A DNA stretch of 64,000 nt from contig JAFGVP010000093.1 of assembly GCA_016937945.1 (NCBI GenBank), positions 1 to 64,000 of the forward strand. Direction: 5' to 3'. Of the stretch, positions 4,423 through 24,980 are shown piece by piece. The stretch comes from Pontiellaceae bacterium (GTDB taxonomy: Bacteria; Verrucomicrobiota; Kiritimatiellia; Kiritimatiellales; Pontiellaceae). The notes beneath the pieces are model-generated. The model was not told the DNA's origin. It did not search any database and saw only the letters and a program-made list of their open reading frames with translations. A program made the position numbers and the translations under genes. How positions within the stretch are numbered: the stretch's first letter is position 1; each line of letters opens with the position of its first letter.

Positions 4423-7400
4423 CTAGTTGTCCCGTTCAGCCCGTCGCGTCCTGAAGGCTTTCAGACGCACCGGATCGAGTTCCACCGGCAACAGTTCCAA
4501 CACCCTGGGCTCCCATTTTCCGGCATCCAGACTGTACGGATAGGCCTCAAGGATCGCCGCAGCCATATCGTACCAGTTGTACCGTCCGAGGTACCCACCG
4601 GGGAGCTCCTTTTTATAATATTTCATGGCGCTACCGAAATCGGCGATACAATCTTCCATTTTCTTTTCATCCGGCTCACCTGACTGCACCCCCTTTAACA
4701 ACGTGAAGCCTGCAAACAGTCGTTCGTGCGACCATGTACCACGGTTTTTCGTTTTGTTAAACTGCTCCGGCTTACCGTCCAGATAACAGGTATCCAGAAT
4801 CATGTGGGCAATGTCGTCCGACAATCCGGGGCTCTTCCGGTTCAGGTCATCCAGTGCCCGCATCAGCTCATAATACTGACGGGTTGAAAGTACCGAAAAC
4901 CGGACCGTATTGACAGGCCGGCGTCCGGCGCATATCTCGTCCATCAGGCCGGCATCGCGCTTTGCGGGAATCTCCGACAACCATCGCGTATCATCCGCTG
5001 AATAATCGGCCCCGGTAAATTCACGGTAAAGCGCAACCACTGTGATGCTATCGCCGGAATCAAGCATGCCGTTGATATAACGCTCAAGCGCTAACCGTTC
5101 AACCGGGCCCCAACCGGAGACCTCAATCTTCGATCCGTTCCCGGCCAGCGCCATCCAGCGAACCGCGGCGGCATCCAGCGCCACCCGATCCAGCAGCCCC
5201 GCATTTTCAAGAATCGTACGGGCCTGCACCTCAAGCAGCGGATCGGCAAATTCATGTTCCGTGAACCGCGCCGCAAGGTCGGCAGTCGCTGCATCCGCAA
5301 AGAAGATTTCCGCAGCCAGCTTTAAATCCACATCTTCGATGCATTCGATGAAACGGGAGAGTTTATCCAAGGGAAGTTCCGGATCGTCCCACTGCCGATT
5401 CCAGCGCAGCAGCGTCTTCAGATTTTCGGCACACCAATCGTTGGCGCCGGCTTCGAGCGCAGCAGCAAAGGCCGCCGGACTCCGATCAAACTGCAAGATC
5501 TCCATGCTGAGCAGACGACGGGCGTCAGCCTCGCGTCCGAGCGCAAAAAGTGCCCGGATATGCGCCGGAGTGATTCCCTCCGGAAGATGATCACCATCAA
5601 CATCCGTCATCATCCGGGAGGCAATCCGTTGATAGAGCGCAGACTCCTCTTCCTGCAACAGCGGATACTTCGCAAGAACTCCGATACCGAAGACCTTTTC
5701 CAGATCAGGATTTTCCTGAATCGTCCAGATGATTTCCTGCCGAGAGGATTCATCACCATTGCGAAGGGCAAAATAGACGGCGGAAAAAGCATCCTGTGGA
5801 AGATAATCCTGCAGATCAAGTTCATGTTCCAGCAGCATGGCATCCAGTTGCCGGGAGCATTCCAACCGGACGTCATCCTGAAGCTCCGTCATTCCCTCAA
5901 GTTTAGCACGACACCAGTCCGTCGCGCCGGACTGCAATGCAACCAACATGGTTTTCGGATCAAGCTGGAGGCTCTTCATAGTCGCATCCGAATTATTCGC
6001 CCGATCGAGCAACCGGGCGGCATCGTCGTGCCGTTCCAGAACCGACAGCAGGCGGACGCGCCGACTCAGTTTATCTTCAGCGTCATCGTTGCCGGACAAC
6101 AGCTGATCGGCGATTTGACGATAGAACGGAGTTTCGGATTCATTCTCAGGTACCGGGAAGACCTGAAGAACGGCGTCCCCGTAATCATTCAGCATGCGGG
6201 CATCCGAGCACAGTGCCGTAAGAATCGGCAAACGGGCATCGACGGTACTAAGTAGCTCAGCATGTCCCTCATGCACCGCCATGCCGATAAACCGGATCTT
6301 TTCCACATCGTCAAAGTCGCTTCGGTTCAGCAGACGGGCAATATCTTCTGCACGGTAATCGTAGAGGTCGAGCGGGTAGCGATCGGGCCATGACAGGCTG
6401 GCGGCCGCACGCAGCTGATCCGCGATGAGTGCATCGGAATCCAGATCATGGAGGTATTGAACATACTGCTCTTTCTCCGAGCAGATAAAATAGTGGATAT
6501 TAAAATACCAGTACAGGGTCTCACTCAGCGGAAGGAAGCCATGCTCGCCCGCCTCGACCAGCCATTTTTCAATCATTTCACGCCGGGCCATGAAACGTGC
6601 ATCCTGCGCTTCCAACCCTTCGGCCTGCAACGCATTCCAACGCACCTGAAGCGTCTCGCTTACCCGGTCCTGCACCCGATGATCCACCGTAGTGAACGCA
6701 CTCATCCGTGACGGTACAGGAACATTTTTCAAATGCTCTGTATCGGAGGCAAACAGAATCTGACCGAGTTCCAGCATGGTCTGCTCCACCTGAAGCGGAG
6801 CTCCGCTGGATGACTGGCCTTCGGCCATGCGACGGGCAAGGACGGAAGTCAGTTCGCGCAGCTCCTCATTCTCCGAGACCGCACCCGCCTTCAGGATCAG
6901 CATCAGAAGATTTCTTTGCTGGGTACTTCTGCAAAGCTCCGGAACAAGCTCCGCCTGCAGCCGGTTCAGAAGTTCCAGCAATCTCGCTTCGGTATCCTGT
7001 TCCAGATATTCCCTGATGTATTCGCCGGTCTCCCGCAGCTCCGATGAACGGTTTTTCTGAAGCAGCGCAACCAGATCCATATCCCGAACCATGCGTATCA
7101 GTAGCGGTTCCAGTAAATGGTCCGGATCAGCATCCTTAAATTCCGATACAACCCACTTCACCAGTTCCGGATCATTCAGTTGCTCTCCGACAACTTTATA
7201 TGCCGCTGTCATCGTATCGCGATTCGGAGTGACGGAATCGCCATCCTTGATCGAAAGTCGCGAGAGAAAGAGCGAGGCCGCCATCCGGAGCTGCGGATCA
7301 TCAATGCCTTTGACCAGATCAGGATATCGGCTGACGGTTTCAACAGGGACCCAGCACTCCGCAATAGACCAGCCATCGTGAATATCGGTCAGATGTTTCG

Positions 7401-10400
7401 CCATTCTCTCGATCACATAATCGTCCAGACCGTAGCGAAGGGCAATGGCACAACTCTGCGGCCGCTGCGTCATGCTGGAGTCCCCGAGACAATCCAAGGC
7501 CCGTTTGCGGTCTCCGATCATGGCAGACAGCTCGCTGAGCGGAAAGAGAATCGAGGTATCGCCGCTGCCGGCATTCACCTTGCGGATATCCCACAACCGG
7601 AAAAGCTTTTGCGCCAGTTGTGAACGCTCGGCCCCTGCTTCCATTTCAATGGTACCGGACAGCATCTTCCTGAATAACGGATGTGGCAGCCGGGAAGGCA
7701 CATCTTTTTCCACGGCGGAGAGCAAGACCATCCAGGCCGAAGGGTCTTCCAGCAGGGGCTGTGTATATTTATGATCCATCAGCCAGGCCCAGGCGTCGGC
7801 CTGAAAAGCCACCGGCCATTCACCGGGCGTGAGGAATGTTTCAACCCAACCTTCCGGGCGGGGGTCTCCGTCCTGATCGCTCACCGCAAACAGCGCAGTA
7901 AAGATTTCGCGGTTTCCGATATCCAGCGCCGTACGGCTGTCAAGACGAAGCCACACCGTCTCAATAAACGGACGAATCGCTTCAATGTCGTGTTCTTTCG
8001 CGAGGGTCTTGATGCGATCGGAGTAGATGGAAGTTACATTCCGATTATTGCGCCGGAGCACGCTGACCATATCCGCACTTTCAATGAACCGGATTCGGAT
8101 ATTCTCGATATGCCCGGCGGAATCGCCGTTGTTGAACTGCTCAATCATCCATTGCAGCAAACGAGGCCGGTCTATCTGCGCGTCGGCTTCGTCCAGCGCC
8201 GCGTAGAGCCGTTCCTTATCCACTTCCGTCGCACTGTCCGACTTCAAAGCGAACCGGCTGAAAAACAGTCGAACGAGCAATCGGATCTGATCGTCGGTAA
8301 TTTTTTCAGCAATGGAATCGCACATGGGCAGGCGCTCGACCGGAATCCAGGTTTCGTTGTCATTAAACCGGTTTTCCATATTCAGCACCATGCGGGGAAG
8401 CTGCTGGGCGACATACTCATCATAGCCCAACTGAACGGCCTTGGCATAGGTTTGCGGAAGCCGGTTCAGGCTGGCGGAACTCAGCATTCCGACGGCATCC
8501 TGATCCCGCCCGAGCGCATGGGAAAACTCTACCAGACGATAGAGTGTATTGCGGTCGGAAGGGGCGCCGGACACCTTCTGGTCACGCCATAGCTGCAGCA
8601 CCCGGTTGACAAGATGTGTCCGCTCGTCGCCCTCCTCAAGCCCGGTAATATGATCAAGCAGATTGAGGTAGGCCTGCCGCGGAATGCGGACGGAAGAGGA
8701 TTCATCGACCAGATCCAGCATGGCGATCGTGAATTCCGGTTGGTTCAACTCCTTGAGGTTGTTTCCATGTCGGTTCTCCAGCCAGGTATAGATTCTCAGA
8801 CGCTCCTCTGCGGAACGGTTTTCATCCTCAAGATAGGCATGGATCTGATCCATTTGATCGTCAGGAACCAGCAGGCTGAAGGTGAGCTTAACCACTGCGG
8901 TTTCAGCAAACGGCTGCTCTCGAAGCCATGCGGCAAGGATCGGATAATCATCCCGGTTCAGATAGTCAAACCATCGGATAAAGCTGACCAATGAATCCTG
9001 AGCGGTATCCACGGAGGCAAACAGGGTGATGCATTCCTTCACTGCACGAAGAGCGGCCACCTGACTGTCCATACCCGGATTCTGATACCGCTGCATACAT
9101 TTGTTGAAATATTGCGAGCTGTAGCTTTCGGCAAACCATTGATCGGCATCCGGATCATCCAGTTGAGAGACGATGGAGAGAATAAAGCGGCATTCAGCGG
9201 CGGATCCGCCCCGATAGTTAAACACGGAATAAAGGAGACTCCGCATATCCATTGAATTTCCGCTAACGGTCAGGCCCATCTGAATCCGCTCCTTCAGTTT
9301 GAAGAAGAGTTCGACAGCCCGATCCGGATCGGTTTCCGCCAGCGTAGCGATCGACTCACCGGTTCGGCGCATGATGTCATACTGATTCTGGACAAACCGG
9401 GAGAAGCGGATCTCATCAAAGGAATCCAGATAAGTACGGGTCCGGCGCGCCAACCACTCGGCATACGGAGCAAGCAGGGTTGTATCTTCCTCATTCTCAA
9501 ATTCATCAGCCAGCGGCGCGGACTGATTCTGCAGGACCGTATCATGCAACCACTCAAACAGCAGGGCGGCGCACGCCGGATCCTCCAGCAGCTGCTCCGA
9601 ATAGGGCGCGATGGCAGCAAACACATTCACACGGCGCTTCTCCCATGAGTTGGATGTATCCACCAGCGCCCGGAACAACTTATTCCCGAAGGTCTGTTCA
9701 CTTCGGGATTCCAGTTCCGATAACATGGGCTTGCCGTTATTTCCCTGCAGGCGGTTTATGATCTGCCACAGCATCGACTGCTGTCCTCCGGAAAAAAGAT
9801 GGAACGGGTAGTCGTCGAATTCCGACAGCAAACCGACTTCGTCGATCCAATCCAGTTCCGGCACATGGTTCCCGTAGCGACTGGAAATATTCTGCTGGAA
9901 GACAGGATACTGCAGTTTGTCATCAATCGGAGCGAGCACCCGCAACACATTTGAAAGCTCAGTTGCCGACAACGTCACGTTACGAAAAGCGCCGGCCAGT
10001 TGCTGCAGTTTATTGTAAAGCTGCTGTCGATTGTAATAACTGATGCTTTCCTTTTCTGCATCCGCCAGCATCTGCCGCTCTTCTTCGGACAGAACGGTAT
10101 TGAGCAGACGCTCATAAGTCGACTTTACATCCAGGGACTCTCCCGCCTTGATCCGGCCGCGGATCCAGGCGCTGACCAGAAAGGCACACTCATTCCATGA
10201 CTGAGCCTCATTTTTCTTATCAACCGCCTGCCAGAGCAAGTCACTCAAGTCTCCCGGACGACCGCTGAGAACGTGCAGACGACAGACCATTTCAAACCAC
10301 GAGGACTGCTGCCGCTGCTCTGTCAAAGCTTCTTCAAGAATTTCGAGATAGCGGGTTTCCGAGGTTTCGGACTGAATATCCACCAGGGTCTTTAACATGG

Positions 10401-13400
10401 ACCGCATCGGCTCGGCATTCATCTCTTTAAGCAGGGCCTCCGCATCGGACCAGTCGTTTTTCTCCCGCAGCGTAAAGATGTAATATTCGAGCGCGTCCTG
10501 CTCCTCGCCCTTGCGGGAAGACGACGAATTATAACTATTGCCGTAATATGAACTGCGGATCACCCCGCGGGCCAGATCAAACAGTTCGTCTTCATCCACC
10601 TCGGCGCCCGTAAAATCATAATAGGCCGTAAGCGAACGAAATGCGGCGGGGGCATAGTGAGTACCCTGACGGCAGGTTGCTTTCAGCAACCGGATAAAAT
10701 TCAGTCGGCGCTGCCGCTGAATTTCCAGAAGGTCGGGATCCCGCCAGTATTCCATATACTCCGGAACCTTGGAGGCATCGAGTTCCCAGTCCGCAGAGAG
10801 CGATCCGGCCTCGGAATCATCATACAGTTCCGGCAGTTGCGAACGGCTCTGGGAAGAGGATTGCTCATACCAGCGGTTATCCATCGAGTTCTGCAGATTC
10901 TGGAGCAGATAGGACTGTGAGATGGCGCTTTGACCATCTTCCTCAAGCAGGGAAACGATGACTTCAATGAGCGCCAGACGTTCCTCATAGGTCGAGGTCT
11001 GGTTGTTCCACCAATCCTGAAAACTCTGCAGCAGCTGGTTGAGATGCCCCTGCGGAAAACCAACGAGCATATCCCGGGCTTTTTCGGGATCTTCACTCAT
11101 CAGGCCGCAGCAATAACGGATGCTGGAACCAATCCAGTCAGGCCGCGCTTTGCAGACTTTTTCGTACAGTTCAACGGCCTCTTCCATATGCCCCATGCGA
11201 TCAAGGGCATAAGCGTATTCATATTGCTGACGGGGTGAAGGGGCATCACCATGAGGAATCATCAAGGCCAGAAAGTCATCTTCAAGCCGACGCTGCCGGA
11301 TATACTGAAGACAGTTTTCCAGATAGTGGTTATACTGCTGATTCCGGGTCGATCCATAGATGGATTTCATGGCTTCGGCACGCAGCATCACGGCCACCCG
11401 CAACAGCGCGGTCCCGGTGTCGCCCTGTTCCACCTGCGTTCGCACCTGACTGTAAATATCAGGGGTGCGCTGATAGCTGTTGACCGATCGGTTTCGCACG
11501 TTGGCATTGCGGCCCAACGGCGCCGGAGTAACCAGATCGCCCAGCGGCAATCCCAGTTGCTCCATCAGGTCGATCAGTTGAATACGGGACGACTGGTCCA
11601 TCCAGAGCGTCTTTTTCAGCTCCGGCATCAGCTCGGTCAAGACCGGATAGAGCGACTCGGGAATCTCGTCCTTATTGGCAAAGAGACTGGCGAGCAGCCG
11701 ATCAATCGTCATGCTCATAATCGCATCGTCCGCCGTATCCTCCCGCAGCTTCAACAGATATTCCATCGCCTTTTCATACTGATTGCGGCTGCCGTACCAG
11801 CATGCGAGGGCAAAGTTCTCGTTCGCATCCTTTTCCGGTTTTGCTTCAATCTGTTCGCGGGCGGCATCCTGAATCGACTGATCGGCCCCGAGCCGATTCA
11901 GCATCAACCAGCGGAAGAGTGAGTCGGGATCATACGCCTCAAGCGTCTCAAGCAGCACATCCTGATCAAGATCGGGCGTGTTCAGGTTGAACGAAAGGCT
12001 CCGAAGGCTGGCTTCAGGAAGGGTGTTCGGCGGAAAAGAAAGCTGGGATAGTCCATAGTAATACGAGATGTTCCGTCCGCCGTAACTGCTGCTTCGGCCG
12101 ATGCCAAGCGAGAACGGATTGGATGGATGAAGAAAATCCTGTTCGATGCGCCGGATCAGTCCGGTATAATCTTCGTCCAGCCGGGCGCGGGCGAGAATCA
12201 TCTGCATTTGCAGCCACTCGGCCGGCTCCTGGTCGCTATCCGCCCAATATGTCTCCACCTTATCAAACAGCCGGCTCAGGCTGGCATAGACCGCGTTGGT
12301 GCGGGACATGGTACCCAATGCACTGATCGATGACTGCGTCAGACTGTTTGCGATATCTTTATCCAGTCCGATGCGGTCCACCAGCCCGGGCAGATATTCC
12401 CAGAGAACCGGATGGTTCATGCCAAGCCGGGTAACGACCCCGAACACAAGTTCAGGATATTCCGCACTGATCTTCTCGATCGTTTGCTTGATTTCCTCCT
12501 CGTTGTTAAAGGTATGCGGAGCAATGAGGAGGCGGAAAACATGGACATCTTCAGAATCAGGATACCGTTCCATAACCGCATTCCACCATGGATCGGAACC
12601 GAACTGAATCGACTCATCAATCGTGCAGAAGGCCGAATAGGGAATCTTTTCTTCCAGTTCCTCCCGCCGATCCTCCGGCATGTCCTGTATCACCGTGAAC
12701 AACTGCAGACGGGACATGTTCTGCAGCTCTTCGATATTTTCCGGAATACTGATGACGGGCTGCGCCGTCGACGATCCAGAACGCTGTTGCATTTGACGCA
12801 CCGAATTCCGGTAGGTTGCCAGCGAATACATGTTGAGCAGATCCTCCGGCACGCAGGCCCCGTACTGGAGCTGCCATTGCTCCATCTGCCGGGAATGATT
12901 CTGCATGGAAGACGAGATACCACTCTGAAACATTCCCGAGGTGCCGGATACGGTATTTGTGGGATCGACATAGCCCGGACGTTCCTGATCCAGTTCGGAA
13001 AGTTTACTGAACAGTTCGTAGGCGGCATCCAGCTTTCCCTGATTTTTCAACAGCAGGCCCTGCAGGAAATCAAAGCGGTAGTCATCCGGATAGATCCCTG
13101 CCATCCGTTCCGACTGCTTGAGGATCGGGTCCAGACCGCCGACATCCGCAATACGCGCACCCAGCTTCAGAAACGCATCCGGATCGTTTGATATGCGCGG
13201 GTCGCCCATCATTTCGGCAGCAACCGCCGGATCACCATATAAATATTCAAACTCAACCAGTCTGCGGTAGGCTTCGCCGGTTATATCCTCTTCGGCAATT
13301 CGCAGCAGCAGCGCTCGCTCGGCATCATAGTTTCCCAGATCCTCTTCGAGCGAGGCCTTGGCGCGCAAAACCGTGAGATCATTCGGGCGCAGCTCCAAGA

Positions 13401-15783
13401 CACGGTCAAGCACCCTATTGCGGTCGTTCATCCGGTGGTTCAGGCGATAGCACTCGGCAAGCCCCAGCAGAGGAAACGGCGCCGTGCGCGCCGACTCCGA
13501 GCGCCGCTCCAGCTCCCGGATAAGATCTTCAAGCTGGCCGGCACCGCTTTTGATCCGGATGATATGCCCCAGCAAGGACATGCGTTCCGCCAGGCTCTCC
13601 TCGGCATTCAGCAGGCGCCAATACAGCTGCTCCGCATCCAGGATGCGTCCGCATTGTTCATAGAGCCGGCCCAGCGAAAGCTTCAGGTCTTTGGATTCAG
13701 GGAAACGCAGCGAGGCACGGCGCAGGCGTTCAACTGCTTCATCCTCCCGATCCGATGCCATCAGTGAATCGCGTTCAAGTTCATACGGTCGAACCGCATT
13801 CGGCGATGCTTTCTTCCATGTTTCAATCCACGCCAACGCCTCGTCGTGTTTATCCTGGCGCAGCAGCACCGGAACCAGCTCCCGGATCCACATTGCCTGC
13901 ATCGACGGATCCCGCTCAGCCAACCGAACCAGCACCGCCTCCGCAACCGTCCAATCCTTGATCCGCTTTGCCAGCATCAGCCGGCACTGCAGCAGCTGCT
14001 CATTATCAGGATCTTTATCCACCGCCTCCTGTAAGAGAGCCTCGGCCATATCCTGCTGCCGGTTCTGCAGATAGAGCGCCGTCAAAAGCCAGCGGCGCGG
14101 CGCTGAAATCTGCTCTTCTGCCGAAAGACGTTCGATCCACTCTGAAAGCAGTTCATTTCCCTTCAGCTCATACACCAGTGCGGTTGTCGCCGATTCTATC
14201 TGGTCGAGCGTTTGCGACAGATCCAGTCGGGCCAGCCCCGCATCAACCAGCCCCTCCTTCTCTTTCGTGGCTGCAATCGCGTCGAACCGGGCGGAGGCAA
14301 ACCGATAATCATTTGCAAAATCGTCTGCCCGCATATCCAGCAGTATCAGCGCACGGTCCGGACTCCGTGCCGCCATCAGGGCCGAAACAAGACGCAGCAG
14401 GGTTTCATCATCGCAGGCGGCTCCCAGCTTTTCATAATGCTTCCAGGCCAGGTTGAGATGCAGGTAGCTTTTGCGCGACATGTGCAGTGCCACCGCTTCG
14501 AGTCCCTCCGCGGAATCCGGCCACTGGGTCAGCATTTCGAGAAAGACCGATGTCGCCTCGTTATTGAGATCAAACCGCGCCAGCGCACGGGCGGTTTCCA
14601 GATAGTCGGCTTCTGTTTTTCCGGAGTGCTCCAAATAATCCATTACCCAGGTGAGCACCTGGTCGTTATCACGATTCCGATGATGGATCATGGCCAGCTG
14701 CATGCGCAGCGCATTATCGTCCGGATAGCGCTCAAGGAAACCCTCAACAATTTCGACAGCATCATCGAAACGATAGAGGCCCATCAGCATATCGACATAC
14801 CATTCCTTGATTTCACGCGAATCAGGAACCAGCCGGATAAGCCTTCGCGCATTCTCCAAAGCTTCCGTATTTTTACCGCAGGCGAGCAGGGCTTCCGTAT
14901 AGGCTCGCAGCAGAACCGGATTGTCCGGCCACGTATTCCGCATTGCTTCGTAACAGCCGCACATTCCCGCCAGATCGTCTGCCCCGCGGAAAAGAACTTC
15001 GATCCGGTCGAGTACATCGCGCTGAAGCCAGCCGCCCTGCCCTGTCAGGCGAAACGCATCAATCAATCCGTCAACAGCTTCGCTGCGACGATCCATCCGG
15101 ACCAGCAGGGATGCACGACGCATGATCAGCATCACCTTGCGATACGCATCCTTGGTCTCCTTCAGCAATTGATCACAGGTTGCCAGCGCCTCTTCATAAA
15201 GTCCTTCCGACAGCTGAAGATCGAGCAGTTCGTCGGCAACATCCTCATCCGGTCCGGCAACCTCCAGCAGCTGTTCCCAGACGGCGGCGCCCTCATCCAC
15301 CCGATTCAACCGAAGCAGGCAGCGCCCGAGCAGCTTGAGCGAATTAATCCGCAGTTCCCGATCAAGGTTCTCGTTTTCCAGCAGCTCCTGCAGCCCGGTC
15401 CGGGCATTGTCATACCAACCGGCATCCGCCTCGGCGGCCGCCTTATAAAAGTGCAGATCCTGCGCATCGGGAAACTCTGCCAACAGGTCTTCGTACAGTG
15501 CCGCCGCCTCGACCGGCTCGCGAATACGCTCATGGAGAAAGGCCAGTAACCGGCGGGCTGATGGATCCGGCTCTGCGGCAAGGAACTCCTTGAGCGCCGA
15601 CACGTCATAGAGCTCAAGCCAGCTGTCACAGAACCGGTCGAACAGATATCCGGGCCGAGGCCGCTTGAGCAGCAGGCGATAATAATCCGCGGTTTTCCCC
15701 TCCGGTTTCACCACCTCGTCGGACCAGCCGTCAAAAGCAGTAAACACCAGAGCACAGAGACAAAGGACCGATCTAAACTTCAT
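4423..15783 (-). CDS. Giant secreted tetratricopeptide-repeat protein (3,786 aa)
   Basis: The 3,786-residue frame begins with a signal peptide (about residues 1-21, MKFRSVLCLCALVFTAFDGW then SDE). After a conserved head (KTADYYRLLLKRPRPGYLFDRFC, residues about 30-52) come many degenerate TPR helices, clearest in the first 900 residues (for example ALxxCxxLL, AEALLQEAVDKDPDNEQLLQCRLMLA). The middle and C-terminal parts are helical solenoid with little recognisable family similarity. Two modules of about 250 aa recur about 330 residues apart (around 2380-2620 and 2710-2950). No catalytic domain, anchor or sorting signal is evident. It is encoded 29 bases after a 2,588-aa paralogue and directly before the DUF4175-like/moxR genes, so a periplasmic scaffold or client role for the MoxR module is plausible. 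BatE and BatC of other phyla are small TPR proteins in the same position. Confidence 0.85.
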   Translation of the reverse strand: MKFRSVLCLCALVFTAFDGWSDEVVKPEGKTADYYRLLLKRPRPGYLFDRFCDSWLELYDVSALKEFLAAEPDPSARRLLAFLHERIREPVEAAALYEDLLAEFPDAQDLHFYKAAAEADAGWYDNARTGLQELLENENLDRELRINSLKLLGRCLLRLNRVDEGAAVWEQLLEVAGPDEDVADELLDLQLSEGLYEEALATCDQLLKETKDAYRKVMLIMRRASLLVRMDRRSEAVDGLIDAFRLTGQGGWLQRDVLDRIEVLFRGADDLAGMCGCYEAMRNTWPDNPVLLRAYTEALLACGKNTEALENARRLIRLVPDSREIKEWYVDMLMGLYRFDDAVEIVEGFLERYPDDNALRMQLAMIHHRNRDNDQVLTWVMDYLEHSGKTEADYLETARALARFDLNNEATSVFLEMLTQWPDSAEGLEAVALHMSRKSYLHLNLAWKHYEKLGAACDDETLLRLVSALMAARSPDRALILLDMRADDFANDYRFASARFDAIAATKEKEGLVDAGLARLDLSQTLDQIESATTALVYELKGNELLSEWIERLSAEEQISAPRRWLLTALYLQNRQQDMAEALLQEAVDKDPDNEQLLQCRLMLAKRIKDWTVAEAVLVRLAERDPSMQAMWIRELVPVLLRQDKHDEALAWIETWKKASPNAVRPYELERDSLMASDREDEAVERLRRASLRFPESKDLKLSLGRLYEQCGRILDAEQLYWRLLNAEESLAERMSLLGHIIRIKSGAGQLEDLIRELERRSESARTAPFPLLGLAECYRLNHRMNDRNRVLDRVLELRPNDLTVLRAKASLEEDLGNYDAERALLLRIAEEDITGEAYRRLVEFEYLYGDPAVAAEMMGDPRISNDPDAFLKLGARIADVGGLDPILKQSERMAGIYPDDYRFDFLQGLLLKNQGKLDAAYELFSKLSELDQERPGYVDPTNTVSGTSGMFQSGISSSMQNHSRQMEQWQLQYGACVPEDLLNMYSLATYRNSVRQMQQRSGSSTAQPVISIPENIEELQNMSRLQLFTVIQDMPEDRREELEEKIPYSAFCTIDESIQFGSDPWWNAVMERYPDSEDVHVFRLLIAPHTFNNEEEIKQTIEKISAEYPELVFGVVTRLGMNHPVLWEYLPGLVDRIGLDKDIANSLTQSSISALGTMSRTNAVYASLSRLFDKVETYWADSDQEPAEWLQMQMILARARLDEDYTGLIRRIEQDFLHPSNPFSLGIGRSSSYGGRNISYYYGLSQLSFPPNTLPEASLRSLSFNLNTPDLDQDVLLETLEAYDPDSLFRWLMLNRLGADQSIQDAAREQIEAKPEKDANENFALACWYGSRNQYEKAMEYLLKLREDTADDAIMSMTIDRLLASLFANKDEIPESLYPVLTELMPELKKTLWMDQSSRIQLIDLMEQLGLPLGDLVTPAPLGRNANVRNRSVNSYQRTPDIYSQVRTQVEQGDTGTALLRVAVMLRAEAMKSIYGSTRNQQYNHYLENCLQYIRQRRLEDDFLALMIPHGDAPSPRQQYEYAYALDRMGHMEEAVELYEKVCKARPDWIGSSIRYCCGLMSEDPEKARDMLVGFPQGHLNQLLQSFQDWWNNQTSTYEERLALIEVIVSLLEEDGQSAISQSYLLQNLQNSMDNRWYEQSSSQSRSQLPELYDDSEAGSLSADWELDASKVPEYMEYWRDPDLLEIQRQRRLNFIRLLKATCRQGTHYAPAAFRSLTAYYDFTGAEVDEDELFDLARGVIRSSYYGNSYNSSSSRKGEEQDALEYYIFTLREKNDWSDAEALLKEMNAEPMRSMLKTLVDIQSETSETRYLEILEEALTEQRQQSSWFEMVCRLHVLSGRPGDLSDLLWQAVDKKNEAQSWNECAFLVSAWIRGRIKAGESLDVKSTYERLLNTVLSEEERQMLADAEKESISYYNRQQLYNKLQQLAGAFRNVTLSATELSNVLRVLAPIDDKLQYPVFQQNISSRYGNHVPELDWIDEVGLLSEFDDYPFHLFSGGQQSMLWQIINRLQGNNGKPMLSELESRSEQTFGNKLFRALVDTSNSWEKRRVNVFAAIAPYSEQLLEDPACAALLFEWLHDTVLQNQSAPLADEFENEEDTTLLAPYAEWLARRTRTYLDSFDEIRFSRFVQNQYDIMRRTGESIATLAETDPDRAVELFFKLKERIQMGLTVSGNSMDMRSLLYSVFNYRGGSAAECRFILSIVSQLDDPDADQWFAESYSSQYFNKCMQRYQNPGMDSQVAALRAVKECITLFASVDTAQDSLVSFIRWFDYLNRDDYPILAAWLREQPFAETAVVKLTFSLLVPDDQMDQIHAYLEDENRSAEERLRIYTWLENRHGNNLKELNQPEFTIAMLDLVDESSSVRIPRQAYLNLLDHITGLEEGDERTHLVNRVLQLWRDQKVSGAPSDRNTLYRLVEFSHALGRDQDAVGMLSSASLNRLPQTYAKAVQLGYDEYVAQQLPRMVLNMENRFNDNETWIPVERLPMCDSIAEKITDDQIRLLVRLFFSRFALKSDSATEVDKERLYAALDEADAQIDRPRLLQWMIEQFNNGDSAGHIENIRIRFIESADMVSVLRRNNRNVTSIYSDRIKTLAKEHDIEAIRPFIETVWLRLDSRTALDIGNREIFTALFAVSDQDGDPRPEGWVETFLTPGEWPVAFQADAWAWLMDHKYTQPLLEDPSAWMVLLSAVEKDVPSRLPHPLFRKMLSGTIEMEAGAERSQLAQKLFRLWDIRKVNAGSGDTSILFPLSELSAMIGDRKRALDCLGDSSMTQRPQSCAIALRYGLDDYVIERMAKHLTDIHDGWSIAECWVPVETVSRYPDLVKGIDDPQLRMAASLFLSRLSIKDGDSVTPNRDTMTAAYKVVGEQLNDPELVKWVVSEFKDADPDHLLEPLLIRMVRDMDLVALLQKNRSSELRETGEYIREYLEQDTEARLLELLNRLQAELVPELCRSTQQRNLLMLILKAGAVSENEELRELTSVLARRMAEGQSSSGAPLQVEQTMLELGQILFASDTEHLKNVPVPSRMSAFTTVDHRVQDRVSETLQVRWNALQAEGLEAQDARFMARREMIEKWLVEAGEHGFLPLSETLYWYFNIHYFICSEKEQYVQYLHDLDSDALIADQLRAAASLSWPDRYPLDLYDYRAEDIARLLNRSDFDDVEKIRFIGMAVHEGHAELLSTVDARLPILTALCSDARMLNDYGDAVLQVFPVPENESETPFYRQIADQLLSGNDDAEDKLSRRVRLLSVLERHDDAARLLDRANNSDATMKSLQLDPKTMLVALQSGATDWCRAKLEGMTELQDDVRLECSRQLDAMLLEHELDLQDYLPQDAFSAVYFALRNGDESSRQEIIWTIQENPDLEKVFGIGVLAKYPLLQEEESALYQRIASRMMTDVDGDHLPEGITPAHIRALFALGREADARRLLSMEILQFDRSPAAFAAALEAGANDWCAENLKTLLRWNRQWDDPELPLDKLSRFIECIEDVDLKLAAEIFFADAATADLAARFTEHEFADPLLEVQARTILENAGLLDRVALDAAAVRWMALAGNGSKIEVSGWGPVERLALERYINGMLDSGDSITVVALYREFTGADYSADDTRWLSEIPAKRDAGLMDEICAGRRPVNTVRFSVLSTRQYYELMRALDDLNRKSPGLSDDIAHMILDTCYLDGKPEQFNKTKNRGTWSHERLFAGFTLLKGVQSGEPDEKKMEDCIADFGSAMKYYKKELPGGYLGRYNWYDMAAAILEAYPYSLDAGKWEPRVLELLPVELDPVRLKAFRTRRAERDN

Positions 15784-15812
15784 ACAAAAACCTCACCATC
15801 AATTGAACCGCC

Positions 15813-18800
15813 CTATTCTTCCGGCTCCGGCGTCATACCGAGCTCCCCCGCGCATCTCAGCACCACGGAACGCATCTCCACTTCATGCGAACATCCCGGG
15901 TCGCTGTTCTGTTTTTCATGCAGGCGCAGCAGGTTCGCCATTCGTTCATGATTCGCTGTCCGCACCAGCATGCGCGCATATTCCTCCACCCGGCGCAACT
16001 CAGCACCATGGGCATCTTCAATAAACTTTTCGAGCAGATCATCGGTGTAGACATCAATAAGAATGGAATCCAAAGAGCCAGACGTCACACGCGGGAGCAT
16101 CATGTCGAGCAGGACAAGACCCACCTCAGGCTCCTCAAAGGGGTGCTCGAGAAATTCTTTCCGGAAGGAGGCCAGATCGACCTCTTCGCCCTCAACGGGA
16201 ATGGAAGAAGCCGCCATGCGGACAAAGCGCCCTTCATCCCCTTCCCATGCACTGACCTGTTGATAGAACCATTCGGCATCTTCGGCAGACCAGACATAGT
16301 GCGATTGCCCGACGGTGTTATAGCTGCGGTCCAGATCGCTGAGCACCCGTTGCAGAGAATCGATCATCTCGCCGACATTGTGTATGCGACTCCACAGGAC
16401 CACCGAAGACATATTTTTTTCACCGCAGGTCATCAGGACCATGCCGGCCTCCGGCTGCCGGCCGGAATCGATCAACAGGTCCGCCAGTGCAAGTGCAATC
16501 TCCGAACGGCGCGACGCCGACTGGGTATAGTTCCGCGTTGTTTCCAGCCAATCATCATACAACGCCTTTGCATCGAGTTCCGCCGGACGATACCAGATCA
16601 GCCGCTCAAATCCCGAGGTTGTCAGGTACAGCTCCGGTTCCAGATTCTTTACTTCGTTGAAGGCCGCATCCACCACCGCCTGCTCCCGAAGGATTTCAAG
16701 AGAGGGAAACATTTCATAAAGAGCGAGTGTAAATATACCCCGTACGGCGCTGCACACGGCACCGTTCGTCAACTGATCGATCCATGCCTGCGTATGCGCC
16801 GGCCCCGTTTCTTCCGAAAGCAGGAGTTGATACAGATCATGATGCGTAAGCCGCAGACCCTCTTCAGAATCCAGCCATCGGGCCAGCTGATCACGATCCA
16901 TACACTCTTCATTGATGAGATATTCGAGCGCATCCACGATCGGCGGACATCCATAGCCTGCAGTCAGTTCATCGAGCAGCTGAATACCTTCCTGCACCGC
17001 ATAAACCCGGGCCTCTTTCACAGAATGTCCGGCGGCTTCGGCCCTCTTGACACGGCGCTTGATCGCCGGGCGAATGACATCGGATTCCATCAGATCGTTC
17101 AGGCTTTTCCACCCACCGGCCAGGTCGTGTCGGTAAGCATAATCCAGTAAAAGCTTCAGTGTGGAACGCCCCGGATAATCTCCATCCGTTATGGAATCAA
17201 AGGTCTGGTCCGCGAGATTCTCATAATAGCGTGAAGGCGAATTCTTTATCTGGCGCGCCAGTCCGGCGGATTCCTGTATACGATCAATTAAGCATACCGC
17301 AGTCGCAGGGTCACAATACGCCAGTTTTCTAGCCAGCTTGCCTGCGCGCTCCCGGATGGAATAGATCTGTTCAGCCTGTTCAATCGAACGCTCTGAGAGC
17401 AAGGCAGCGGCATCGCTTTTCAGATCCTCAGCCTGACGATCCGCCCACAGGGAGAACAGCTTCCGGGCAGGACCTTCCGGCACAAGGGACGGATCGGCAT
17501 CCCAGCCATATTTATCCTGCAGAATGCCCCACAGGTTAAACAGATCCTCGCGCTTCGACTGTTCGGACGCCATGATTTCCGGATAATAATCGCCGGCCAG
17601 CTGTGCCAGCTCCGAGACCATTTCCTCGGGCGATAACTCCTGATGACTCAGCAGAATTTCTATCAATCGCGAGCCGTAGGTCGGCGGCGCAATTCCGGCA
17701 ACTTCTGAACGGAGCGTCTTGTCCGAGGACAAATGACCCAGAAGCATCACAAGCAGGCTGGATTCTTGATCAAAACTGTACGATGAAAACCGGTTCCAGT
17801 CCTCAACAAAAACCGTCTCGAGCAACAGGTCGGTTGTGACTTCGTCCCGGTTCCGCCAGAAGCGGTCCATGCCGCTCGAACCTCGACTGAAGTGACGGAA
17901 CACGGGGGCCATTCGCTCAACGATCCGGTTCCAGCTGGAGACATCCATCTGCGAATTGTCCAATATGCCGAAAATCAGATTAAGGCGTACATACACCGTA
18001 TCCGAAAATATCAGCTCTATTTTTTCGGGCGTCGTCTCCGGATTGCCGATGATTGCGATATCCTCATCGGAAAAGAGTGTTTCAGCAAATTCCAAAGCCG
18101 CCGGAGCAATCGCTTCCGGACGCTCCATATCCAGACAAAGTTCAAACCACTTCTGAAGCAGTTCGTTTCTCAGTCGCAGAGAATCGCGATCGTCCAGATG
18201 GATCGACTCAAGAATCAGGGGCGTAAGATCGATGGTTTCATTCCGGTCTCGGTATGTACTGAGGATTCGTTCCAGATTCTTTTGTCCGGAAGACAGCAGG
18301 TTATCCTTTGTCAGACACGCTGACAAAAGCTCGCGGAACACATCTTCATCAGCAAAAAACAGCGGGGCAAGCGCCTCCATCTCATCATGCAGCCGACGGT
18401 CCTGAACCGCGGCCATGACGCGATCGAAGCGGGCCCGGTCGTTCGAACGCATACATACAGACGCAAAGTAACGCTCCGGTGTTGTTCGTATCGCAAAGGT
18501 ATGATCATACAGGTCATCCTCATCGGCATAGTATCCCTTCTTCTGCTGAAGAAGGATCTGCTCAGCGAGCTCTTCAAGATCATCCCGCTGAATCTTATGA
18601 ATCCGGCAATACTGCTCCATCATGGAAAACCCGATGCGGCCCATTCGGGGATTCGTCAAAAACAGATCACACAGCCGGACAAACTGTTCATTCCGCCGCT
18701 GCTGGATGGCGATGATGCGTTCCGCCGGCGGTTCAGCCGATTCATTCTTTTCATCGGCGGAAACGGGCGAGAGCAACCCTGATTCAAGCGGAGCATAGTC

Positions 18801-21800
18801 TGCATTTCCGTTGTTCCATGGATCGACAATATGTTCCATGACATACATCAGAGCAAAAGGTTCGGCGTGCTCACGGGTCGCATCAATGGCTGCGAGCATC
18901 AGTTCCGTATAATGCACACGCGTCTCCAACGAAACCTGATCGATGTCGGAACACAGGGTAAAGATCAGATTCTGAAGCATGGATACGGGCATTTCATTCA
19001 TGATTTCGAGGGCGGATTCCGGTTCATCTTCCATCAAGGTAATTACGCAGAACCGTACGCCACTCCAACCGGAGTGCGCCTTGAGCACCGCCTGATAATG
19101 CTCCAGTGCCTCCTCTTTGCGGTCCGTCAGCTCGCAGGCCAGCGCATAGGCCATCACCGACTGGGTGGACTCATCGCTCTCGGGGCGCATAAACTCGACA
19201 AAACGATCTTCCAGTCCGTTTTTACGAAGAAGCTCCATACACTCCGTCAGCTCTTCAGGCACTTGTTCGTAACTTTCAAGCATGGTTCGATACACCAGGC
19301 TGCGTCGAAGAATGGCGCCGGACTCGCGAAAAACGCGTTCAAGGTTTCCCTGGGCAATCATGCGCCCCATGCGCTCGAGGTCGGTTGGACCACGTTGCGT
19401 ACCCGGGGTGCCGGCCATCGCCGCCTTAGGCCTGGCAACCGGCTTTTCGGCCATACCGAGCTTCCGACGCAGGTCGTCCATAATGACGGAATCCTTACCT
19501 GAAAGGTACAGGGAAGAGAGGCGCAATACGGCTGCCCGGCATTCACGCTGTTGCTCGGCGTCCAGAGTATCCATGTATGTTGCGCGATCAAGCAACGCTC
19601 CGTCGATCCGCCGTCGAAGTTCCGTGGTCGGAGCAGCATGACGTGCGCGGATGAGATAGGAAAATGCCCGGTTATCATCCTGCCCGGAGGCATACCACGT
19701 CCCGAGCAAAAGGTTTTTATCGAAACCGGCCTCGGCCCCCTGCTCGATGGTTTCAATCAGGGATGCCGTCTCGTCATGATCCAGCTCCCGATACAGCAGA
19801 CTCAGGCGGAGGACCGGATCTTCAATGCTCTTCAGCGCTGCCGTCAGATCTTCATCGGAAGAGTACCGGAACCGGTAGCTCCATGAAGGCAGGAGGACAT
19901 CGGGCGGAAAGGAAATCGATTTGATCCAGTTATCTCCGGAAGGATATCCCGAGCTGCGTTTGTAGCGACTGTAGGCCGACTTTTGCATCTCCTCACGATA
20001 ACGCGTCTCCATATCGTCTATGAGCACCTCGTACGCCTTGAGTTCCTGAAGCATTTCATAGCGCTGGTTGAGTGCGGTTTCCGGGAGGGAGAGCGCATAC
20101 GCCATGAACGCGGATTTCAACTCTTCGGACATCTCATTTTCACTGGCCAGTTCATAGAGTTTTCCGATGGCCATCTGAGTGGACTGAAGGGCCTGCTCGC
20201 TATCCGAACAACGCACCAACAGGTCGGGAAGCAGAGTCCATTGGTCATCCCCCGGCGGTCCTGCGGACAACAGGGCGCACAACGCGCCCCCGGGGAACTC
20301 ATCCTGCAGCATCGTATAGAGCCGGTCCCGTTGCTCTTCGCTCAGGAATCCGTTATAATCTCCGCTTTCGCTCACGGCAATCACGGCCAGCAGATACGCC
20401 AGTTCCATATCACCGGAATGGGCATCTATGCACTCAAACCACCAGTCGGGAGAGGATGAAAAATAATCGACATCCTCGGCGAGCAGAATATCGATATACG
20501 CCAGATCCGCCTGCTCCATTGCAAGGGTCACTCGTTCCCGCGCATCGGGCTCAAGCATCGGGAGTAATTTGCGAAGATGGTTTACCGCGAAGGGAACCAG
20601 CTCACACAGATGCCGGGGACCAAAGTCGGCCCCCATGTTCCGGGAACGCATGTTCTGCCGATATGAATAGGCCTGCTGTTCAAATTCCATGATCGTCATC
20701 AGCTGATTCATGGAGGGCAGTTCGTCAAGTGGAAGCCACTCGCCGGCTTCGGATTGGAGCGTCATCGGAGCCACGCCGGCGCGTTCCTCGCGCACGCTCA
20801 AGAGGCGGAGAAACAGATCAACCGCCGGCAGCGGCATTCCGGACTCCTCAAGGGCAACGGCATACAGGTATGAGATCCGGTAATCTCCGGCAAAGTCATC
20901 CAGACGGTCGGCCAGCAGTTGCTCAACGTCTTCGTAGGCATTGAATCCCAGCAAGGTTTCGGCGGCTTCCAGCAGAATATCCGGATCATCAAAACGACAC
21001 TCTTCCCGAATCATCCGCAAACCGCGTTCCTGATCTCCGCGCAGAATCAATAAACGCGCCATATCGAGCAGCGTCCGGGGATCTTTTTCCTCCCGGGCCA
21101 CCTGGCGTATCAGGGCCAGAGCCTGATCATATGAGCCTGACGCCAATTCCGCCCGGGCGACCACCCGCATAGTCTGCGTATCGTTCGGCCGCAATTCCAG
21201 TACCTTGAGCAACGCCTCAGTACGGGCGTCATAGTCATCAAACAACGCGTGGCATTCAGCCAGTGCCAGCAGAGGAAAAACATCCGCACGGTTGGCTGAT
21301 GCACGCTCCTTGAGCTCTTCCATGACCGCATCCATGCGATCCGTCCAGCGCAACAGCTCCAGCATCCGGTTAAATGCCGTCAGGCGACCGTCAAGATCCT
21401 CCTGGCCATCCACCAGCGACCAATGCACCTGTTCCGCCTCCAAAAGCCTGCCCTGATCGATATAAACCTCCGCCAGCCGCTCCTTAAGTTCCGGAGCTTC
21501 CGGCAGTCGATAGGCCGCACGCCTCAGAAGCGTCACGGCCTCTTCGTTTTTATCCTGCGCCAACAGAATCCGGCTTTCGCGCAGATAAATCTGCGGATTG
21601 GAACTGGAGAGCTGTTTCCACTGCTGCAGCAGAGCCAGAGCATCGTCATACTGCTCCGACTCAAACATCAGGTCGGCCAGCTGTTTAATCCAGATGGTCC
21701 CGCGCTTCGGGGCCGCATTCCGCAGGCGCTGCAGGCATTCCACGGTACGGGCCCGATCATGCACAGACTCCGCCTGTTCAAGACGCATTTCCAGCAGCAG

Positions 21801-23579
21801 CTCACTGGCAGGATCCCTTGCAAGGGCTCCATCGATGGCCTTCCATGCCAAATCAAGATCCCCCTGTTTCACATAAACGCGGGTCAGCAGATAGAGTTCC
21901 GGCAGGGTCACCACCGTTTCGGCCTCGAGATCGGCCCGAAGCTCATTCATTCGTCCGGCGCGCCGCGCTTCGTCCAAAACGGCAAAGGCCGCCCGATGCA
22001 TCTGATCGAGCGTCGCTGAAACCTGCATCCATTGCATCGCCAGCGGGCCTCCGTCCGGCCGTTCATCTTCCGGCACAGCCAGCAGCGTCTGATAGACGCC
22101 CTCCATGTACCGTGGACTCCGCCCGAAATCCGCCATGCGGCCCTTCAGGAAATCATATGCCAGCATCCCTCTATGCGCACCGCAAAGCAGATTAGCCACG
22201 CGAAGCAGCATCGACTCATCACCCTGCAGTTGCAGCGCATCGAGATGTTTTGCGGCCAGATGATACATGCCTTCGCGAATCATGTGATAGACCAGCTCTT
22301 CTCGGGCTTCGAGCGATTCCGGATACGCTTCAAGACACTGCAGATAAACCTGTGTAGCATCATTGGCCTCGCCCAGATGAACCAGAGAACGCGCGGCACG
22401 GAAATAGTCAAACACCTCTTTCGGACTGTGCTCAAGGTACTCAAGAACCAGCTCCCGTACCTGATCCGAATGATTCAGGGCACCATAGAGTCCCGCCAGC
22501 CGGAGACGAAGCTCATTACGGTCCGGCTGCTGGTCGAGCATGACGCGGACCAGATCAATAGCTTCTTCATGCCGACCGCACTCCTCAAGAAGCTTCACAT
22601 AAAACTCACGAATCTCCTCATCCTGCGGAGCCAGACGCAGGAGGGCCCGCCCCTGCACCACCGCCGCATCATGATCGTTCAGTTCAACAGAAACCGAGGT
22701 CAGGCTTCTGAGGAGCAGAAGATTTCCCGGATGCGATTCCAGCAGGCGCGCATAATGATCCTTCAGACCGGTCAGGTTTTGCTGAAGACGGTAGGTCTGG
22801 GCGATGCGGCGCAGCACCTCCCGCTCAATCCAGCTGCCGGATGCCGCCGAATTCAGGGCTTGATCCAGCGTTTCCAAAGCGGGTTCCGTCCGGTCCAGCC
22901 GAGTCAGGATAGAGGCCTTGCGTAACGCGAGCATCATCCGATACTGAGCATTTTTTGAAGACACCATCAGCTCGCTGCAGTCCTTCAGCGCCTCTTCGTA
23001 AAGCCCTTCCTCGATCTTCAGCTCGATGATTTCATCCTGAAGGTCCGTATCGCCCTCTTCTTCAAGCAGCAGAGAAGACAGCAGTTTCAAACCATCATCC
23101 ACCCGATCCAGACGAATATAGGTACGGGCCAACAGCTTCATGGCATCGGACCACAGTTCCCCCTTCTGTGCTGCCACGGTTTCAAGGTCAGCAACCGCAT
23201 CGTCATACTGCCCTAACCGCACAGCAAACAGGGCGCGGTAATAATGAGGAGTCATCTCGTCCGGCGCCAGCTCCAGTGCACGGCCGCACATATCCATGGC
23301 CTGGACCGGTCGTCCCGTTCGGTCATAATAGAATGCCAGCAGAAGACTTCCGGTGCTATCGTCTTTCCGCGATTCAAGAAACGTTTCAAGTTCCTGCATT
23401 TCATGTTCTTCAAGCCAACTGTTGCAGAATCGTTCAAACAGGTACCCGGGACGTGGACGTTTTTCGAGAATCCGGTAATACTGCTCCGTCTTTCCGGCCG
23501 GCTCAACCGAAGCCGCAAAAACAGTTGCGGCACATCCCGCGACCAGCCCGATCAGTAGTAATTTTCTCCCCAAATCCAT
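15813..23579 (-). CDS. Giant secreted tetratricopeptide-repeat protein (2,588 aa), paralogue of the next gene
   Basis: ATG at 23577-23579 follows a GGGGGA ribosome-binding site at a good distance and opens directly into a signal peptide (MDLGRKLLLIGLVAGCAATVFA). A TTG start six codons earlier would place charged residues before it and is less likely. Residues about 25-60 repeat the paralogue's head (KTEQYYRILEKRPRPGYLFERFCNSWLEE). TPR units fill at least the first 850 residues (for example GRALELAPDEMTPHYYRALFAVRLGQYDDAVADLE); the remainder is divergent helical repeat. No enzyme domain is seen. It is the first gene of the long MoxR operon; the 180 bases upstream to argG hold a terminator but no convincing promoter. 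Tandem duplication followed by large expansion is the simplest history. Confidence 0.85.
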   Translation of the reverse strand: MDLGRKLLLIGLVAGCAATVFAASVEPAGKTEQYYRILEKRPRPGYLFERFCNSWLEEHEMQELETFLESRKDDSTGSLLLAFYYDRTGRPVQAMDMCGRALELAPDEMTPHYYRALFAVRLGQYDDAVADLETVAAQKGELWSDAMKLLARTYIRLDRVDDGLKLLSSLLLEEEGDTDLQDEIIELKIEEGLYEEALKDCSELMVSSKNAQYRMMLALRKASILTRLDRTEPALETLDQALNSAASGSWIEREVLRRIAQTYRLQQNLTGLKDHYARLLESHPGNLLLLRSLTSVSVELNDHDAAVVQGRALLRLAPQDEEIREFYVKLLEECGRHEEAIDLVRVMLDQQPDRNELRLRLAGLYGALNHSDQVRELVLEYLEHSPKEVFDYFRAARSLVHLGEANDATQVYLQCLEAYPESLEAREELVYHMIREGMYHLAAKHLDALQLQGDESMLLRVANLLCGAHRGMLAYDFLKGRMADFGRSPRYMEGVYQTLLAVPEDERPDGGPLAMQWMQVSATLDQMHRAAFAVLDEARRAGRMNELRADLEAETVVTLPELYLLTRVYVKQGDLDLAWKAIDGALARDPASELLLEMRLEQAESVHDRARTVECLQRLRNAAPKRGTIWIKQLADLMFESEQYDDALALLQQWKQLSSSNPQIYLRESRILLAQDKNEEAVTLLRRAAYRLPEAPELKERLAEVYIDQGRLLEAEQVHWSLVDGQEDLDGRLTAFNRMLELLRWTDRMDAVMEELKERASANRADVFPLLALAECHALFDDYDARTEALLKVLELRPNDTQTMRVVARAELASGSYDQALALIRQVAREEKDPRTLLDMARLLILRGDQERGLRMIREECRFDDPDILLEAAETLLGFNAYEDVEQLLADRLDDFAGDYRISYLYAVALEESGMPLPAVDLFLRLLSVREERAGVAPMTLQSEAGEWLPLDELPSMNQLMTIMEFEQQAYSYRQNMRSRNMGADFGPRHLCELVPFAVNHLRKLLPMLEPDARERVTLAMEQADLAYIDILLAEDVDYFSSSPDWWFECIDAHSGDMELAYLLAVIAVSESGDYNGFLSEEQRDRLYTMLQDEFPGGALCALLSAGPPGDDQWTLLPDLLVRCSDSEQALQSTQMAIGKLYELASENEMSEELKSAFMAYALSLPETALNQRYEMLQELKAYEVLIDDMETRYREEMQKSAYSRYKRSSGYPSGDNWIKSISFPPDVLLPSWSYRFRYSSDEDLTAALKSIEDPVLRLSLLYRELDHDETASLIETIEQGAEAGFDKNLLLGTWYASGQDDNRAFSYLIRARHAAPTTELRRRIDGALLDRATYMDTLDAEQQRECRAAVLRLSSLYLSGKDSVIMDDLRRKLGMAEKPVARPKAAMAGTPGTQRGPTDLERMGRMIAQGNLERVFRESGAILRRSLVYRTMLESYEQVPEELTECMELLRKNGLEDRFVEFMRPESDESTQSVMAYALACELTDRKEEALEHYQAVLKAHSGWSGVRFCVITLMEDEPESALEIMNEMPVSMLQNLIFTLCSDIDQVSLETRVHYTELMLAAIDATREHAEPFALMYVMEHIVDPWNNGNADYAPLESGLLSPVSADEKNESAEPPAERIIAIQQRRNEQFVRLCDLFLTNPRMGRIGFSMMEQYCRIHKIQRDDLEELAEQILLQQKKGYYADEDDLYDHTFAIRTTPERYFASVCMRSNDRARFDRVMAAVQDRRLHDEMEALAPLFFADEDVFRELLSACLTKDNLLSSGQKNLERILSTYRDRNETIDLTPLILESIHLDDRDSLRLRNELLQKWFELCLDMERPEAIAPAALEFAETLFSDEDIAIIGNPETTPEKIELIFSDTVYVRLNLIFGILDNSQMDVSSWNRIVERMAPVFRHFSRGSSGMDRFWRNRDEVTTDLLLETVFVEDWNRFSSYSFDQESSLLVMLLGHLSSDKTLRSEVAGIAPPTYGSRLIEILLSHQELSPEEMVSELAQLAGDYYPEIMASEQSKREDLFNLWGILQDKYGWDADPSLVPEGPARKLFSLWADRQAEDLKSDAAALLSERSIEQAEQIYSIRERAGKLARKLAYCDPATAVCLIDRIQESAGLARQIKNSPSRYYENLADQTFDSITDGDYPGRSTLKLLLDYAYRHDLAGGWKSLNDLMESDVIRPAIKRRVKRAEAAGHSVKEARVYAVQEGIQLLDELTAGYGCPPIVDALEYLINEECMDRDQLARWLDSEEGLRLTHHDLYQLLLSEETGPAHTQAWIDQLTNGAVCSAVRGIFTLALYEMFPSLEILREQAVVDAAFNEVKNLEPELYLTTSGFERLIWYRPAELDAKALYDDWLETTRNYTQSASRRSEIALALADLLIDSGRQPEAGMVLMTCGEKNMSSVVLWSRIHNVGEMIDSLQRVLSDLDRSYNTVGQSHYVWSAEDAEWFYQQVSAWEGDEGRFVRMAASSIPVEGEEVDLASFRKEFLEHPFEEPEVGLVLLDMMLPRVTSGSLDSILIDVYTDDLLEKFIEDAHGAELRRVEEYARMLVRTANHERMANLLRLHEKQNSDPGCSHEVEMRSVVLRCAGELGMTPEPEE

Positions 23580-23701: not shown

Positions 23702-23736
23702 AAAAAAACAGCCACCGCACTGCGGTGACTGCTTTT
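23702..23736 (-). terminator. Rho-independent terminator of the arginine operon
   Basis: Reading the minus strand after argG, a 9-bp stem (arms 23721-23729 and 23711-23719, one G-U pair) is followed by a run of seven T. It separates the arg cluster from the giant TPR operon. Confidence 0.85.
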
Positions 23737-24962: not shown

Positions 24963-24980
24963 TGTTCGATCCTTTCCAGA

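Follow-up and report, generated by a model that had tools for sequence, protein, structure and literature searches.

A conserved gene module of MoxR, DUF58 and VWA proteins associated with giant, putatively exported TPR proteins in Verrucomicrobiota and Planctomycetota

The window, i.e., the whole stretch of 64,000 nucleotides that was analysed, represents bases 1–64000 of contig C14 (64,161 bases) in a genome of 4.28 Mb. All genes of the locus considered here are located on the minus strand and are arranged, in the 5′ to 3′ direction, as argG, TPR-B, TPR-A, PARTNER, a four-helix-bundle gene, moxR, a DUF58 gene and BatA. TPR-B (15813–23579) is the first gene of the unit and encodes a 2,588-aa TPR/alpha-solenoid protein with features of export. 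Its paralogue TPR-A (4423–15783), encoding a protein of the same type of 3,786 aa, is the conserved lead gene of a six-gene module. PARTNER (2859–4406) encodes a 515-aa membrane protein with about three predicted TM helices near the N-terminus. The moxR gene (1241–2221) encodes a 326-aa MoxR-type AAA+ ATPase with Walker A GVPGLGKT and Walker B ILLADEINR motifs, and the overlapping DUF58 gene (378–1241) encodes a soluble protein of 287 aa with the MIDAS-like motif DCSRS. The BatA-type VWA gene (1–381) is represented by its first 127 codons, including the MIDAS motif DNSLS, and is truncated because the window starts at base 1 of the contig. The sixth and last gene of the operon, VWA2 (GATase1_like + VWA), was found on another contig of this genome, C32, at bases 4–2133, where it is cut by the contig end; it is 73% identical to the copy in genome G001.

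The gaps between argG and TPR-B, TPR-B and TPR-A, and TPR-A and PARTNER are 180, 29 and 16 bases, respectively. The gap behind argG (23760–24962, named from its sequence) contains an intrinsic terminator on the minus strand (23702–23731), which was read by eye and then folded; it consists of a hairpin followed by seven T, with a folding energy of −23.1 kcal/mol and a z-score of −4.8. This terminator divides the arginine genes from the TPR genes, which would therefore open a new transcription unit. Scans for sigma-70 promoters and terminators gave no excess over shuffled sequence. The tight spacing and the upstream terminator favour putative co-transcription of the unit. Upstream on the same strand, positions 23760–28745 hold a putative arginine biosynthesis cluster of argG, a gene for a 118-aa protein, argD, argB and argJ, and argG likewise adjoins TPR-B upstream in genome G004. 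Elsewhere in the window, positions 31093–34182 encode an exported-looking 1,029-aa protein with many GGGxxxG-type repeats, which resembles a beta-helix surface protein in sequence, and two overlapping ORFs at 34193–35355 resemble the halves of a chromate-type (ChrA) transporter.

The assignments of moxR, DUF58, BatA and VWA2 are based on Pfam. The window MoxR matches PF07726 (E 1e-62), the DUF58 protein PF01882 (E 9.5e-31) and the BatA fragment PF07584 (44 bits); the full-length BatA orthologue in G001 has 587 aa. VWA2 combines PF07090 GATase1_like with a VWA domain and reaches only 14.6 bits against PF07584 (cut-off 25.9) in one of two proteins. The GVPGLGKT and DEINR motifs are intact in all eight MoxR proteins compared, and DxSxS is intact in DUF58, BatA and VWA2 of the eight genomes. 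The preliminary description of two giant TPR proteins (3,786 and 2,588 aa) heading MoxR, DUF58 and BatA genes is borne out: both giant ORFs are free of internal stops, and the Pfam matches agree. However, the composition of the unit had to be corrected in three places. PARTNER, between the TPR genes and moxR, belongs to it, the four-helix-bundle gene does not, being common only to the window and G014, and BatA, incomplete in the window, is followed by VWA2 as a sixth gene.

The four-helix-bundle gene (2399–2755; 23S rRNA IVP, PF05635) sits between PARTNER and moxR. It occurs in G014 at the same place with similar arrays (81% identity) and is absent at this place in G001 and G004. Since it is missing in these two genomes and in other phyla, it was rejected as a part of the module and is, as judged from the compared sequences, a passenger. 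It is flanked (2222–2864) by arrays of repeats with a 7-bp period, those on one side reading as inverted copies of those on the other. Arrays of this kind were found at seven of nine such gene loci, and also at about a sixth of control loci, so they were not accepted as a special mark of the gene.

Both giant proteins have an N-terminus of the signal-peptide type, in which a short charged segment is followed by a hydrophobic stretch, and behind it lies the sequence GK(T)xxYYRxLxKRPRPGYLFxRFCxSWLE with the core KRPRPGYLF(D/E)RFC. The shared secreted head KRPRPGYLFxRFC reported earlier is, accordingly, present in both, behind a signal-peptide-like segment. TPR-A and TPR-B align over about 2,200 residues with 26% identity (E 7e-160) and are paralogues. 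Pfam TPR matches cover residues ~90–830 of both proteins and a further site at ~1520 of TPR-A; the families above the cut-off within the N-terminal ~830 residues are PF13428, PF14559 and PF13432, and past residue ~930 such matches are almost nil. A hand-made TPR count along the giant was too weak to add to Pfam. The label “TPR” holds for the N-terminal ~930 residues. An AlphaFold model of TPR-A residues 985–2060, modest in quality (pLDDT 71, pTM 0.50), contains helices only and no strands, and its best PDB matches, at low TM-scores, are the long alpha-solenoids of IFT139/TTC21B, TTC7B and Ski3. An alpha-solenoid is thus likely, on the modelled part, for the remainder of the giants. The TPR superhelix rises roughly 0.7–0.9 nm per 34 residues; by arithmetic from this usual geometry, a TPR-A that was solenoid throughout would measure some 80–100 nm.

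An alignment of 26 family members shows that residues ~25–930 are well conserved, ~930–2640 are present with weak conservation, and ~2640–3786 vary in length. Giant TPR proteins elsewhere mostly have 2,200–4,270 aa. Orthologues of TPR-A occur in G014, G001 and G004, and TPR-B is placed in the tree as the sister of the TPR-A clade of the genus, while the second giant copies in G278, G412, G229 and probably G342 represent separate duplications. Giants of 2,200–3,700 aa with the same head were also found outside any MoxR module (L201 in G631, L203 in G653, L186 in G278, L187 in G342 and L188 in G229); these are mostly second copies, and so the family also has orphan members. Stop-interrupted or split giant frames lie beside an otherwise intact module in L196 (G691). 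In G407, which has no PARTNER, contig C108 carries an isolated head fragment that contains a stop.

Two further comparisons of the giants were made outside the MoxR context. The PrsT PEP-CTERM TPR proteins (TIGR02917) are the best NCBIfam match of both; however, the scores of 74.7 and 97.8 bits are far below the cut-off of 312.2, the gene context is different, and this assignment was rejected. The best natural solved-structure match of the head profile is LbcA (PA4667; 7rqf, E 3e-21), a TPR scaffold assembling the CtpA protease. LbcA differs in its size of about 540 aa and in lacking a MoxR module, and the homology is at the level of TPR repeats only.

PARTNER has hydrophobic segments at residues 23–75 and 135–162, a helical, Q/G-rich C-terminal part of ~350 residues and a tail conserved as FVxREDxPExxKxGVKxYF. 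Ten members matched no Pfam family at up to E 5; STI1-HOP_DP was considered and rejected, with 19 bits against a cut-off of 29 in two of the ten. Sequence profile comparison with the PDB returned only coiled-coil and ferritin-like noise, and the fold search in the PDB with the AlphaFold model (modest, pLDDT 66) gave no match (best E 1.1).

BatA and VWA2 each have two N-terminal hydrophobic segments and one at the C-terminus, and the short loop that joins the N-terminal pair contains basic residues; no hydrophobic segments occur in MoxR and DUF58. The positive-inside rule places the VWA, GATase-like and PARTNER C-terminal parts in the periplasm. From signal-peptide-like starts and hydrophobic segments, the TPR giants and the large parts of PARTNER, BatA and VWA2 are predicted to be periplasmic, and MoxR and DUF58 cytosolic. 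The topology measured for the MoxR-linked VWA protein BB0173 of Borrelia matches a periplasmic VWA domain (PMC5700661).

In order to compare gene order, 20 kb were read around each place. The complete order giantTPR-PARTNER-MoxR-DUF58-BatA-VWA2 on one strand was found in 15 sampled genomes: G001, G053, G092, G110, G189, G229, G233, G250, G278, G306, G342 and G352, and the planctomycetes G044 (Lacipirellula limnantheis), G434 and G682. Many junctions in these genomes overlap or have gaps of less than 30 bases. Up to the limits of their contigs or of the stretches retrieved, this order also holds for the window, G014, G168 and loci L034 and L035. In G412 and G089, the module comes first and a TPR gene or tandem pair is located at its 3′ end (the tandem giants of G412 are L173 and L174). 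The TPR-PARTNER pair is divergent from the adjacent MoxR gene in the planctomycetes G669, G627, G759 and G653, and in G553, TPR is divergent from MoxR-DUF58-BatA-VWA2-PARTNER. In total, the TPR gene lies within about 7 kb of PARTNER or MoxR in about 25–27 of the 30 genomes with co-occurrence.

The exceptions are few. TPR is apart from PARTNER and MoxR in G315, G631 and G676, and in G739, PARTNER is about 5 kb from TPR with MoxR elsewhere. In G004, TPR-A and the PARTNER-MoxR module, which adjoin each other in relatives, keep their order and strand on one contig, about 165 kb apart. Nitrogenase-type genes occur at both edges of this intervening stretch (contig C3; L024, L025 and L081), and G004 also has a 390-aa ORF between moxR and DUF58. 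Second copies away from the module include TPR-B of G004, L186, L187 and L188. Separation of the giants from MoxR modules is, therefore, not routine, being confined to a few genomes (G004, G315, G631 and G676) and to some second copies.

The distribution of the families was studied using two profiles, A3 for the head and A4 for PARTNER, both built from linked loci and run over the same genome samples. Among 388 genomes of Verrucomicrobiota, the head was found in 18 and PARTNER in 17; PARTNER is present in 17 of the 18 head genomes and in none of the other 370. The exception, G407, is the genome with the stop-containing head fragment; it is 85% complete and lacks a MoxR of the linked type. The holders in this phylum are scattered over eight families. 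Among 342 genomes of Planctomycetota, the head was found in 13 and PARTNER, counted at E 1e-8, in 24; PARTNER is present in all 13 head genomes and in 11 of the other 329. Three of these 11 matches are at E ~1e-25 and eight are weak. A relaxed search of the 11 genomes revealed no clear giant head; in G459, a 2,467-aa ORF with a diverged, head-like sequence adjoins the weak PARTNER match. Fisher tests gave p values of 9e-29 for Verrucomicrobiota and 2e-17 for Planctomycetota with shared ancestry ignored; since the genomes share ancestry, the counts are not independent trials. The cross-phylum evidence comes solely from a scan of 84,980 species with strict PGYLF-type peptides, which matched only in Planctomycetota, Verrucomicrobiota and Kiritimatiellota. 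The search for the shared head near moxR in other genomes that had been proposed earlier thus leads to a module recurring in about 30 genomes of two phyla.

The linked MoxR is of a particular type. Relatives of the window MoxR have 80–88% identity in the four other members of the genus with a giant TPR and 61–65% in distant holders, and a linked MoxR is present in all five genus members with a giant TPR. In the order, all seven genomes without a giant that were checked hold no MoxR more than 48% identical to that of the window. In a tree of 46 MoxR proteins, 25 of the 26 linked ones form one group (SH-aLRT 98), outside which are G089 and a second planctomycete type. Pairwise distances are correlated at 0.92 for TPR and PARTNER, 0.86 for PARTNER and MoxR and 0.83 for TPR and MoxR, and none of 2,000 permutations was as high. 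The order, joint occurrence and correlated divergence of the genes therefore uphold the proposed tie between the giants and MoxR in Kiritimatiellota, other Verrucomicrobiota and Planctomycetota; the periplasm-spanning scaffold chaperoned by MoxR that was suggested along with it is a candidate function.

The reading that we put forward, with confidence that is evenly balanced, is that of a MoxR/VWA envelope machine of PVC bacteria with a giant exported alpha-solenoid as its hallmark periplasmic arm. MoxR (AAA+) and DUF58 (VWA-like) would act in the cytosol, and BatA, VWA2 and PARTNER would be inner-membrane proteins whose large domains face the periplasm. The giant TPR protein, present in duplicate in the window (TPR-B and TPR-A), would form the arm, of which the conserved N-terminal ~900 residues may dock on the VWA and PARTNER domains and the variable long C-terminal solenoid may reach outward and bind clients that are exported or located in the envelope. 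The complex would be assembled or remodelled through the ATPase activity of MoxR, relayed by DUF58 and the membrane proteins. We infer the docking, the direction of force and the client binding. MoxR proteins work via VWA partners: the NorQ hexamer engages NorD and strains a linker in NorD (PMC13036017). The conserved N-terminal and variable C-terminal parts of the TPR family were counted in favour of the arm, as were the co-occurrence with PARTNER, the complete operon in 15 genomes, the MoxR clade, the distance correlations and the predicted topology. Against it are second giant copies off the module, the genes standing apart in G004, G315, G631 and G676, the modest AlphaFold models (pLDDT 66 and 71) and the fact that no client gene is constantly linked except the TPR gene. 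A bolder form, which we regard as rather unlikely, is a novel ATP-driven machine of PVC bacteria in which MoxR and DUF58 would act via the membrane VWA proteins on a 300–480 kDa periplasmic solenoid bridging both membranes as a tether or conveyor.

As no constantly linked client was found besides the TPR gene, the TPR protein itself could be the client. MoxR, DUF58 and the VWA proteins would then fold, metal-load or deploy a large structural protein of the envelope, for instance a lattice or tether in the periplasm. The client genes of known MoxR/VWA systems usually lie beside those of the pair (norCB-norQD, mxaFI-mxaRSACKL, rubisco-cbbQO), and here the giant TPR gene is the only constant extra gene, with flanking genes varying between genomes; the tandem duplicates in the window and in G412 (L173-L174) would fit a product made in quantity. 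However, the usual role of TPR solenoids is to bind other proteins, Bat-type modules contain small TPR proteins as accessory components, and the conserved part of the giants is N-terminal, as expected for docking to constant partners. This explanation is tentative, a serious contender that we nevertheless doubt.

Operon membership alone is no proof of interaction, and G004 and others tolerate separation, so the genes might serve stress or envelope functions under common regulation only, with products that do not cooperate physically. This is improbable, given that the genes are present or absent together almost without exception in two phyla, including where they lie divergently or apart, and that the linked MoxR proteins form a matching clade. 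More improbable still is a MoxR-VWA ternary system for conflict or sensing, in which TPR would be the sensor. The window MoxR does exceed the Pfam cut-off for bpMoxR PF20030 (39.3 bits vs. 27), and TPR and MoxR reportedly occur together in described conflict systems (PMC7159879); however, AAA_3 fits the MoxR protein far better (210 bits), Pfam detected no beta-propeller, nuclease or other effector among the module proteins, and the N-termini of the TPR proteins are of the export type, and this candidate was rejected. An accidental proximity of large ORFs to a MoxR module in a single genome, to which the off-module position of TPR-A in G004 might point, is refuted by co-occurrence, gene order, the MoxR clade and the distance correlation.

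MoxR ATPases and Bat-like genes are widespread, and few of their envelope targets are known. The MoxR module described here is inherited with one giant exported protein and the PARTNER family, and a specific set of partners is therefore directly testable; Lacipirellula limnantheis is a culturable species with the complete operon. The module also provides a first context for a family that includes repeat proteins among the largest secreted by Planctomycetes and Verrucomicrobia.

Among the known systems, the module was compared with Bat operons (MoxR-DUF58-BatA-BatB-BatC-BatD-BatE), with which it shares MoxR, DUF58 and BatA (PF07584) in similar order, an exported TPR component and a periplasmic VWA protein, predicted here and measured for Borrelia BB0173 (PMC5700661). 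In contrast, the second VWA protein carries GATase1_like and is not BatB, PARTNER is an additional membrane protein, and the TPR proteins have 2,200–4,270 aa vs. the small BatC/BatE. The Pfam matches of the ten PARTNER members, taken up to E 5, include no BatD model, nor do those of the other module proteins. The likening of the giants to BatC/BatE in the preliminary description holds, then, for an exported TPR component with MoxR, DUF58 and BatA, and fails for BatB and BatD, in whose stead PARTNER and the GATase-VWA protein are found. A Bat operon with an oversized BatC/E was rejected, and the module was not filed as a Bat operon, because BatB, BatD and small BatC/E are absent.

The NorQ-NorD, RavA-ViaA and CbbQ-CbbO pairs are similar in having a MoxR AAA+ protein with intact Walker motifs beside proteins with an intact MIDAS; the module differs from them in its three membrane proteins, its giant exported solenoid and the lack of a constant enzyme client. 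The mxaRSACKL genes of methanol dehydrogenase maturation likewise comprise MoxR, DUF58 and VWA membrane proteins, which act on a periplasmic target. However, no methanol dehydrogenase lies beside the module in the loci read, and the giant TPR protein and PARTNER have no evident counterpart among the mxaRSACKL genes. A search of the open-access literature found no reports on MoxR-associated giant TPR proteins in these bacteria. These comparisons suggest that the MoxR, DUF58, BatA and VWA parts are known, that the set would function in the manner of Bat and other MoxR/VWA modules, and that their combination with a giant TPR protein and PARTNER is a previously undescribed one.
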